Source: Bryobacteraceae bacterium
GTDB lineage: Bacteria; Acidobacteriota; Terriglobia; Bryobacterales; Bryobacteraceae
Direction: 5' to 3'
DNA: 64,000 nucleotides
Assembly (NCBI GenBank): GCA_019187195.1
Contig: JABAQT010000028.1
Coordinates: 4,202 to 68,201, forward strand
In this document: one piece after another, positions 61,880 through 64,000 of the stretch
Layout of the letters: each line of letters opens with the position of its first letter
Position numbering within the stretch: position 1 is the first letter of the stretch
Made by a program: the position numbers and the translations under genes
The notes under the pieces: model-generated
What the model was told of the DNA's origin: nothing
What the model saw: only the letters and a program-made list of their open reading frames with translations
Databases searched by the model: none

Positions 61880-62749
61880 CTATGTCATCCTTACCGCGCG
61901 TAGCTTCGCGCTGCGCGACGCCGGATTCTCCAGCACTTCCTTCTCCGCCGGTTTTACGACGTGCTTTGTCAAGATTTGCGCCCGGCCTTCCCTGGCCAGC
62001 CGTTGAAACCCTTGCTTGACCGCGCGGTCCTCCGTCGACATGAACGTGATCACCACCATCCGCCCGCCCGCGGCCACCAACCCCGGTCCTGACTCGAGCA
62101 GCGCTTCCAGTTCCTCCCGCTCCCGGTTCACCGCAATCCGCAATGCCATAAAGGTGAGGGTCGCGGGGTGCAGCCGCCCCGTCCTCGGCACGGCCTCCTC
62201 GATCACACGCGCCAAATGTAGCGTGCCTCGAATCGGCCGCGCCCGGACGATTGCTCTGGCTATTCTCCGCGCCCTCCTTTCTTCGCCGAGTTGATAAATC
62301 AAATCGGCGAGCGCCTTCTCGGCTTCGAAATTGACGATCCCGGCCGCCGTCGGCCCTTCGGTGCGATTCATTCGCATGTCTAAAGGGCCGTCCGACTGCA
62401 GAGAAAATCCACGCTCTCCTTCTGTCAGTTGATAGCGGCTCACTCCCAAGTCCGCTACCAACCCGTCTACTTGTGCTACTCCACATGCTGCCAATGTCTT
62501 CGCCAACTGCGAAAAACTGCCCTGCCGGTACCGGATCCTTTCCGCCCACTCCCGCGTGTTCTCCCGCGCTATCTCGAGCGATTCCCCGTCCCGGTCGCTG
62601 GCGATTACCAAACCGCCCTCCAGCCGTTCCGCAATCAGCCTCGTATGTCCCCCGAGCCCGGCCGTCGCATCCAGATAAATTCCTCCCGGACGCACAGCCA
62701 AGTGCTCCATCACTTCCGCGCCCATCACAGGTATGTGAAGCGGCCCCAT
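61880..62749 (-). CDS. rsmH: 16S rRNA (cytosine1402-N4)-methyltransferase RsmH
   Basis: This 289-residue enzyme (formerly MraW) methylates C1402 of 16S rRNA. It begins HIPVMGAEVMEHLAV, with the SAM site DATAGLGGHTRLIAER, then GLVADLGVSRYQL, RMNRTEGPTAAGIVNF and the carboxy-terminal NPASRSAKLRAVRM (usually NPRSRSAKLR). Start ATG 62749 lies 6 bases after the mraZ stop. Size is slightly below average but all motifs are kept. Confidence 0.96.
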   Translation of the reverse strand: MGPLHIPVMGAEVMEHLAVRPGGIYLDATAGLGGHTRLIAERLEGGLVIASDRDGESLEIARENTREWAERIRYRQGSFSQLAKTLAACGVAQVDGLVADLGVSRYQLTEGERGFSLQSDGPLDMRMNRTEGPTAAGIVNFEAEKALADLIYQLGEERRARRIARAIVRARPIRGTLHLARVIEEAVPRTGRLHPATLTFMALRIAVNREREELEALLESGPGLVAAGGRMVVITFMSTEDRAVKQGFQRLAREGRAQILTKHVVKPAEKEVLENPASRSAKLRAVRMT

Positions 62750-62755
62750 ACATAC

Positions 62756-63247
62756 CTATTTGAGCCCCAGTTCTCTCAGATACGCTATCTTCGCCGCCAG
62801 GTCTTCCTCCGCCTCGCGGCATTTCTCCTCGAGCACCTGCTGGCTGTATACCAGGAACACCCCGTCGTGAGCTTCCATCCACACCTGGGCGTTCTCGATC
62901 CCCAGCCTCCGCCTCAGTGTCGTCGGCAACAGCAACCGCCCCGCCGAATCCATCTCCGAAAGGTCCCCGTACAGGTTCGCGCATAACAAGACCTGTTCTC
63001 CCACCGCTCCTGCGCGATTTGTCATCAAATCTTTGTTCGCCATCCACACCGGGAGAGTGTACACTTTGAGCGTGGGCAGTTTTAATGTCAGGTCCAAACA
63101 CGTCACAAACACTTTCGTCGCCTGCAGCGCCGTCAAGTATGAGGCAAACTGTACCGGCAGCTTCAAACGCCCTTTTTCGTCCACTTTGGCTGGATGCAGC
63201 CCCAGCGGCGGGTCGATTCGCGTCGGAGATGGGGGCGTCGAAACCAT
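62756..63247 (-). CDS. mraZ: Transcriptional regulator MraZ
   Basis: This 163-residue DNA-binding protein has two SpoVT/AbrB-like repeats. The first reads VDEKGRLKLPVQFASYL (~22-38) and the second MDSAGRLLLPTTLRRRLG (~99-116), both showing the DxxGRxxLP pattern. MraZ usually forms rings that bind phased repeats in front of the dcw operon, repressing or tuning it. Three such repeats lie directly upstream here. It has ~15 additional N-terminal residues and no Shine-Dalgarno sequence before ATG 63247. It is the first gene of the 14-gene cluster. Confidence 0.95.
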   Translation of the reverse strand: MVSTPPSPTRIDPPLGLHPAKVDEKGRLKLPVQFASYLTALQATKVFVTCLDLTLKLPTLKVYTLPVWMANKDLMTNRAGAVGEQVLLCANLYGDLSEMDSAGRLLLPTTLRRRLGIENAQVWMEAHDGVFLVYSQQVLEEKCREAEEDLAAKIAYLRELGLK

Positions 63248-63250
63248 TTT

Positions 63251-63280
63251 TTAACACATTCGACCACTTTCGGCCACCTG
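63251..63280 (-). repeat. Three 10-bp-phased MraZ boxes
   Basis: Read on the minus strand, CAGGTGGCCG, AAAGTGGTCG and AATGTGTTAA follow one another, with GTG at exactly the same place in each decamer (CAC on the plus strand at 63255, 63265 and 63275). MraZ operators elsewhere are GTGGG/AAAGTG-type boxes with a 10-bp period. The boxes cover the predicted start site and leader of mraZ, which fits autorepression. Confidence 0.8.
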
Positions 63281-63284
63281 AGCG

Positions 63285-63313
63285 ATTCTGACACATTCAC
63301 CTTTTCAAGGCAA
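63285..63313 (-). promoter_or_regulatory. Promoter of the dcw (mraZ) operon
   Basis: On the minus strand TTGCCT (63308-63313) and CAGAAT (63285-63290) are 17 bases apart. The start site would be near 63278, inside the first MraZ box. A 44-base tract, nearly all purine on this strand (63316-63359), with A-runs, lies just upstream of the -35 and could act as an UP element. Confidence 0.65.
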
Positions 63314-63359: not shown

Positions 63360-63482
63360 ACATCCAGCCCTATCTACAAGTAGTAGCTGCACTCACCACA
63401 TCCACATCCCCTTGCACCCTCTTCCGTCATCCATAGCCATTCTTTCCGTTCCACCTTCCCTCTACGCTTCCCGCCTTCGCCC
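63360..63482. other. Intergenic region without a recognised gene
   Basis: This part of the gap between the divergent mraZ and SCO1-like genes is pyrimidine-rich on the plus strand and shows no coding pattern, RNA gene or clear hairpin. Confidence 0.5.
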
Positions 63483-63502
63483 GGTGGCCTAAAGTGGCGG
63501 TT
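63483..63502 (+). repeat. Two MraZ-like boxes in front of the SCO1-like gene
   Basis: GGTGGCCTAAAGTGG at 63483-63497 differs in one base from GGTGGCCGAAAGTGG of the mraZ operator and keeps the 10-bp GTGG period (63484 and 63494). It is on the opposite strand, about 60 bases before the SCO1-like start. A regulatory role is inferred from similarity only. Confidence 0.55.
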
Positions 63503-63560
63503 TCCAGTCCCCCCCGCCGCAAGTGAAATTTCTGCCACAATGCCTATGGAAGCAGTCCTC

Positions 63561-64000
63561 ATGAGCCCCTATCCATCCCGGCGTCATCTTTTCCTTACCT
63601 TCGCTGCCACCGCTTGCCGCCCTCCCATCGAACCGGAACTCCTGCCCGACGCCGGACAACTCCCCGACTTCTCCCTGTTCACCGAAACCGGAACCCCCTT
63701 CTTCCGCCGCGACCTTGCCGGCAAAGCCTGGGTCATGGATTTCATCTTCACCCGCTGCACCCTCGTCTGCCCCCGCCTCACCACTCAAATGCGCGCCATC
63801 GAACAGCAGGTGGACTCCCTCCCCGTTGGCCTGTTGTCCATCTCCATTGACCCTGAATACGACACCCCGCAACGGCTCCGCGCCTACGCCGCTCTACACA
63901 ATGCCCGCGCCCCCCGGTGGCGCTTCCTCACCGGCGAAAAAGCGGCCATTCGCGCCCTCCAGGTGAAAACCCAGCGCCATCTCGACCCGGAGGAAATCAC
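63561..64000 (+). CDS. SCO1/SenC-type thioredoxin-fold copper protein, 3' end beyond the window
   Basis: The visible 146 codons start at ATG 63561 behind GGAAG; in-frame ATGs at 63540 and 63546 are alternatives. The N-terminus (PSRRHLFLTFAATAC) resembles a lipoprotein signal with the Cys at residue 19. The mature part has LPDFSLFTETG, AWVMDFIFTRCTLVCPRLTTQM and LLSISIDPEYDTPQRL. The CxxxC (CTLVC) and the DPE-x-DTP segment are signatures of SCO1/SenC proteins, which deliver copper to cytochrome c oxidase or act as thiol-disulfide reductants. The third copper ligand (a His) would lie beyond the visible motif region. It is divergent from mraZ. Confidence 0.88.
   Translation, partial: MSPYPSRRHLFLTFAATACRPPIEPELLPDAGQLPDFSLFTETGTPFFRRDLAGKAWVMDFIFTRCTLVCPRLTTQMRAIEQQVDSLPVGLLSISIDPEYDTPQRLRAYAALHNARAPRWRFLTGEKAAIRALQVKTQRHLDPEEI

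Follow-up and report, generated by a model that had tools for sequence, protein, structure and literature searches.

RESULTS

Gene organization at the mraZ locus

The window (the whole 64-kb stretch of DNA analyzed here) carries mraZ, the first gene of a dcw cluster, head-to-head with a divergent SCO1/SenC-like gene, and two MraZ-like sites lie in and beside the intergenic region. MraZ is a ring of MraZ domains that represses its own operon through GTG boxes in Escherichia coli and other bacteria. The features that concern us, in window coordinates, are as follows.

61880-62749, minus strand: mraW, which comes after mraZ (Pfam PF01795)
62756-63247, minus strand: mraZ, 163 amino acids, first gene of the dcw cluster (Pfam PF02381, 36.8 bits)
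63244-63280, minus strand: mraZ operator, a row of four 7-nt boxes in 10-bp phase that ends over the mraZ start codon
63285-63313, minus strand: presumed mraZ promoter, read from the sequence
63374-63383, no strand assigned: palindrome CTACAAGTAG in the mraZ upstream region, conserved and unrelated to the MraZ boxes
63481-63497, plus strand: distal two-box MraZ-like half-site, CCGGTGG (63481-63487) and AAAGTGG (63491-63497), as located with the box model described below
63530-63541, plus strand: presumed SCO1 extended -10, TTCTGC-CACAAT, a conserved alignment block with this putative function
63561-64000, plus strand: SCO1/SenC-like gene (PF02630), which runs off the window

The nearest named match of mraZ is in a Bryobacter metagenome-assembled genome, at 38% identity, and the other named loci among the matches listed carry the titles Acidobacteria, Acidobacteriota, or genera of this phylum, to which the window probably belongs. 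The SCO1-like gene probably starts at the ATG at 63561, a choice guided by alignment with the ATG of relative G003 and the GTG of relative G009, and its open frame ends at position 1353 of L063. A beta-lactamase-family gene lies downstream of SCO1 in G009 and a frame of the same length in G003 (loci L063 to L065 compared), while a gene for an outer-membrane beta-barrel protein is found further downstream in the genome that contains the window (5.83 Mb, hereafter G000).

The site in front of mraZ

To score MraZ boxes, we used a model of seven positions with the consensus AAAGTGG, derived from the boxes that precede mraZ in relatives; 72 mraZ genes were examined and those with a good four-box array were used. 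The four boxes at the mraZ-side site are CAGGTGG (4.7 bits), AAAGTGG (11.8 bits), AATGTGT (6.4 bits), and AAAATGG (9.4 bits). As an MraZ operator, we counted a site with three or more boxes similar to AAAGTGG, phased at 10 bp and positioned just downstream of the -10 element, over the transcription start. Here, the presumed promoter consists of TTGCCT (63308-63313), a 17-nt spacer, and TGT-CAGAAT, with the -10 at 63285-63290; a strict consensus promoter scan missed it, and it is kept in both G003 and G009. The four boxes follow in phase, and their first GTGG follows the presumed -10 by 7 nt in G000 and by 8 nt in G003 and G009, which share the same four-box layout, so that the array would cover the presumed transcription start. 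Across the relatives, three or four boxes reach 1 bit or more in the best array upstream of mraZ in 94 of 149 cases, and one or two do so in the remaining 55.

This arrangement matches published operators, as far as the available text of the reports describes them. In Burkholderia cenocepacia, mraZ is preceded by four 7-nt repeats with 3-nt spacers, which follow the -10 and cover the transcription start (PMC7761207), and the MraZ motif of Mollicutes is (AAAGTGKN3)3 (PMC5282649). Judged by these accounts, the dcw operators of E. coli, B. cenocepacia, and Mollicutes share AAAGTG[G/T] in 10-bp phase with the mraZ-side site of the window. By its sequence, the latter is a canonical four-box MraZ operator of the ordinary autoregulatory type. 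An MraZ ring seated on the GTG boxes that cover the presumed transcription start would most likely bring about autorepression of the mraZ operon.

Two further observations concern the mraZ genes and their upstream regions. Genome G006 has a second, divergent mraZ copy on contig C78 (L160), of 29% identity, with AAAGTGG-like boxes in front. The palindrome CTACAAGTAG is kept in G003 and G009 and appears to be a site for a further regulator acting on the dcw promoter; exact copies of CTACNNGTAG are present in 6 of 151 regions upstream of mraZ, always at -100 to -200, and its matches with at most one mismatch also peak at that distance from mraZ.

A second copy of the first two boxes

An earlier note on this DNA had pointed out a 15-mer that occurs twice within 230 bases, with one mismatch and with GTGG units in the same phase. 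Both copies are indeed present: GGTGGCCTAAAGTGG lies at 63483-63497 on the plus strand, and its near-copy GGTGGCCGAAAGTGG lies on the minus strand at 63264-63278, two bases away from the 63266-63280 given previously. They agree at 14 of 15 bases in inverted orientation, start 219 to 220 bp from each other, and each holds two GTGG units 10 bp apart. The description of both as box pairs is accurate for the SCO1 side; the copy at mraZ is the first half of the four-box array.

With at most one mismatch, GGTGGNNNAAAGTGG has two matches in the window against 0.30 expected, a count reached in 3 of 100 shuffles, and the looser GTGGN6GTGG has six against 2.62 expected. In the whole of G000, GGTGGNNNAAAGTGG is found only at the two 15-mer sites, with none in the backwards control, which makes a second copy beside mraZ a striking coincidence. 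The pattern GTGGNNNRAAGTGG has six matches in G000 compared to nine in the backwards control, and the four that lie elsewhere are all within open frames of 323 to 464 codons. At this density, a further GTGGNNNRAAGTGG match no more than 300 bp from the first has a chance of about 2e-4, a value uncorrected for the post hoc choice of the pattern. A fairer base rate is the share of mraZ upstream intervals with an inverted pair, 11 of 150, described below.

Agreement at 14 of 15 positions in G000 could also mean that the 15-mers are the arms of an inverted repeat, either duplicated or hairpin forming, rather than protein sites. In both relatives, however, the boxes of the two copies agree while the spacers differ (GAT versus CCC in G003 and TCT versus CCG in G009), so pairing between the copies is not conserved. 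We therefore rejected a hairpin or duplication as a conserved feature and regard this explanation as very remote.

The half-site in front of SCO1

The SCO1-side site departs from an MraZ operator in both the number and the position of its boxes. In G000, its first box, CCGGTGG, scores 1.2 bits (1.6 bits in G009) and its second, AAAGTGG, scores 11.8 bits under the family box model; the in-phase neighbors score -20.8 and -11.2 bits on one side and -9.4 and -17.7 bits on the other. The array thus ends at two boxes in 10-bp phase by this model, short of the three expected of an operator. Its distance upstream of the presumed SCO1 -10, which reads TTCTGC-CAGAAT in G003 and G009, is 38 bp in G000, 46 bp in G003, and 42 bp in G009, so the site would not overlie the SCO1 transcription start. 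No -35 element was recognized at SCO1, and a consensus scan picked out no promoter there. Unlike dcw operators, the distal site is an inverted two-box element 220 bp upstream of mraZ, next to a non-dcw gene and off the presumed transcription start.

We found SCO1 head-to-head with mraZ in only 3 of the 151 relatives examined (G000, G003, and G009), and when the 12 genomes of the genus were searched at the DNA level, the pair again appeared in these three alone. Genome G010 was left out because its contig ends at SCO1, which is 88% similar, and no mraZ was found. The half-site is present in all three genomes with the pair, inverted relative to mraZ, as GTGGCCTAAAGTGG, GTGGGATGAAGTGG, and GTGATCTGAAGTGG. 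The outcome that the earlier note had named as refuting, absence of the second box pair from close relatives, was not observed: at a similar place, the site is intact in G003, and G009 has GTGA for GTGG in the first box, so both GTGG cores are whole in two of the three species, and the AAGTGG of the second box is kept in all three. Among the three sequences, 9 of 10 box positions are invariant compared to 1 of 4 spacer positions, the pattern expected of a protein site. The SCO1-side stretches of G003 and G009 are only 66 to 67% identical to that of G000. However, 78 of 129 other columns in the same intergenic stretch are also invariant and 3 of 59 other segments of it equal the 9 in 10 of the boxes, so this conservation offers modest support. 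We also considered coding conservation behind the AAGTGG block and thought it unlikely, since the distance from site to SCO1 start (77 nt in G000, 82 nt in G003, and 78 nt in G009) does not hold a reading frame.

These data bear on the proposal that weak binding of MraZ at the half-site leads to modest repression or tuning of the divergent SCO1-like gene, a control that would tie cytochrome oxidase copper assembly in this small group to the division operon. The site is 77 to 82 bp upstream of the SCO1 start in each of the three species, its boxes are kept while its spacer is not, and its presence coincides with SCO1-mraZ adjacency in three of three. On the other hand, it has two boxes only, with GTGA in one species, and its distances to the presumed -10 differ by 4 and 8 bp, which is not a helical turn, so that the helical face is not kept.

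Orthologues of SCO1 that are not linked to mraZ speak against the proposal as well. The earlier note had suggested a search for the motif upstream of related SCO1 genes, and none of the five unlinked orthologues (G001, G002, G004, G006, and G007; 42 to 60% identity) has a box pair in its promoter. In that order, the best direct-strand scores are 2.5, 3.0, 10.0, 11.7, and 1.2 bits, and the best inverted-strand scores are 3.4, 3.8, 5.1, 10.3, and 8.5 bits. The direct-strand matches of 10.0 bits in G004 and 11.7 bits in G006 lie about 490 bp before the SCO1 domain match and are read as falling in the preceding gene; the inverted-strand matches of 10.3 bits in G006 and 8.5 bits in G007 lie 314 and 449 bp before it. 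Taken with the box number and spacing, the unlinked genes lead us to consider tuning of SCO1 by MraZ rather unlikely.

Inverted box pairs upstream of mraZ in the wider family

An inverted site might instead serve mraZ itself as an auxiliary operator, with the MraZ ring at the four boxes also holding the half-site in a loop that tightens autorepression. In a survey of the interval from -140 to -320 in 150 mraZ upstream regions, 11 had an inverted 10-bp pair scoring 11.5 bits or more, compared to a mean of 2.7 regions and a maximum below 11 with 300 column-permuted models. Three of the 11 regions belong to the SCO1-mraZ group (G000, G003, and G009), and the other eight (G063, G020, G044, G048, G050, G104, G122, and G151) have no adjacent SCO1. 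In 79 held-out regions searched from -140 to -900 at 13 bits, there were four inverted pairs, compared to zero to two at nine other spacings, and no direct pairs. When the half-site is instead scored as a four-box array among the same intervals of 149 regions, it ranks 15th in G000, 5th in G003, and 19th in G009. The enrichment is therefore real but mild, and the site in G000 is not outstanding.

After the first 72 genes, we had suspected a trait of the family, namely, a distal site in inverted orientation around -210 to -280. The pair is absent, however, from the sister species G049 (compared to G048 and G050), G034 (compared to G122 and G151), and G125 (compared to G063), and two of the four held-out pairs are covered by open reading frames (260 codons in G070 and 303 codons in G151). 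The enrichment over permuted models stands, but because no conserved family trait emerged, we dropped the general rule. Distal matches in G082, G064, and G070, which are outside the counted interval of -140 to -320, likewise lie within open frames, of 386, 442, and 260 codons, respectively.

The absences in sister species also weaken the case for an auxiliary operator, as do the distances from half-site to mraZ operator, which at 220 bp in G000, 235 bp in G003, and 235 bp in G009 are not in phase with each other. In B. cenocepacia, MraZ did not bind a fragment from -386 to -136, according to the available text of that study (PMC7761207). Despite the enrichment of inverted pairs and their occurrence where SCO1 is not adjacent, we judge a looping auxiliary operator to be quite improbable.

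A regulon search with GTGGNNNRAAGTGG in 27 genomes gave per-genome counts that did not generally exceed those of the backwards control. In G000, G003, and G009, 17 of the 18 other GTGGNNNRAAGTGG matches lie in open frames of 218 to 667 codons, which indicates that matches of such strength arise by chance. Two-box matches of this quality occur in about 5 to 10% of mraZ upstream intervals and should not be taken for a regulon.

The survey turned up several other MraZ-like pairs. A strong one in G013 (19.5 bits; L099, 2223-2236) meets a divergent gene for inorganic pyrophosphatase at its stop codon, and another in G098 (21.3 bits; L254) lies at -830 from mraZ. Of 151 relatives, 18 have a pyrophosphatase gene upstream of mraZ, G098 included. 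In G044, which belongs to another family, several inverted GTGG pairs are found upstream of mraZ (L102, 1501-1740).

DISCUSSION

The action of MraZ is not strictly confined to the dcw cluster. The earlier note had described MraZ as classically local to the dcw operon, and the available text of the literature sides with this view in one organism and against it in another. In Mycoplasma genitalium, the motif is found only at mraZ and no change in transcription was observed beyond the cluster (PMC8475190), whereas in E. coli MraZ is stated to influence the expression of about 23% of genes (Eraso et al. 2014, cited in PMC7761207). In a search of one open-licence literature collection, we found no paper on MraZ control of SCO1 or on acidobacterial MraZ operators.

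The closest precedent for a two-box site comes from Mycoplasma gallisepticum. As the available portion of that study reports, its MraZ recognizes in vitro a site of two GTG repeats in the hsd promoter, but in vivo overexpression of MraZ leaves the hsd operon unaffected (PMC5282649). The half-site in the window resembles this HsdC site in consisting of two direct repeats with a GTG core; as described there, however, the HsdC site, (GTGTTAN5)2, has its repeats 11 bp apart and belongs to another regulator.

We give an even chance to the reading that the SCO1-side site is a fortuitous or vestigial half-site, which would play no part in regulation by itself. No more than two of the four boxes are matched, the first of them weakly; the site would lie upstream of the SCO1 -10, compared to 7 to 8 nt downstream of the -10 for the mraZ operators; unlinked SCO1 orthologues have no promoter site; GTGGNNNRAAGTGG in G000 does not exceed its backwards control; and binding in vitro with no effect in vivo has the M. 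gallisepticum precedent, as far as the available text goes. Several results count against this reading: GGTGGNNNAAAGTGG has no match in the genome beyond the two sites, all three SCO1-mraZ species have the half-site despite the low identity of its surroundings, its box positions are kept while its spacer is not, and inverted pairs are enriched upstream of mraZ, with which the held-out set weakly agrees. A fortuitous or vestigial half-site may have been inherited within the three-species group that shares the head-to-head gene pair, and MraZ perhaps binds it weakly in vitro, but its importance for regulation is probably small or nil.

The bolder claim is that, in a small Acidobacteriota-like group, MraZ also acts through a half-operator of two boxes to control the divergent copper chaperone of the SCO1 type, linking oxidase assembly to the division operon, with one MraZ ring possibly bridging both inverted sites. 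We consider this claim unlikely as a whole. The extension of MraZ to SCO1, or looping between the sites, which the earlier note had raised, finds no support in an element of two boxes that is misplaced for an operator and whose spacings vary.

If MraZ does act at the half-site, the locus would provide a defined and conserved non-dcw target and, for a regulator that forms a ring, a natural arrangement with two sites. The useful result for the bacterial family of the window is a clear four-box MraZ operator in front of mraZ.
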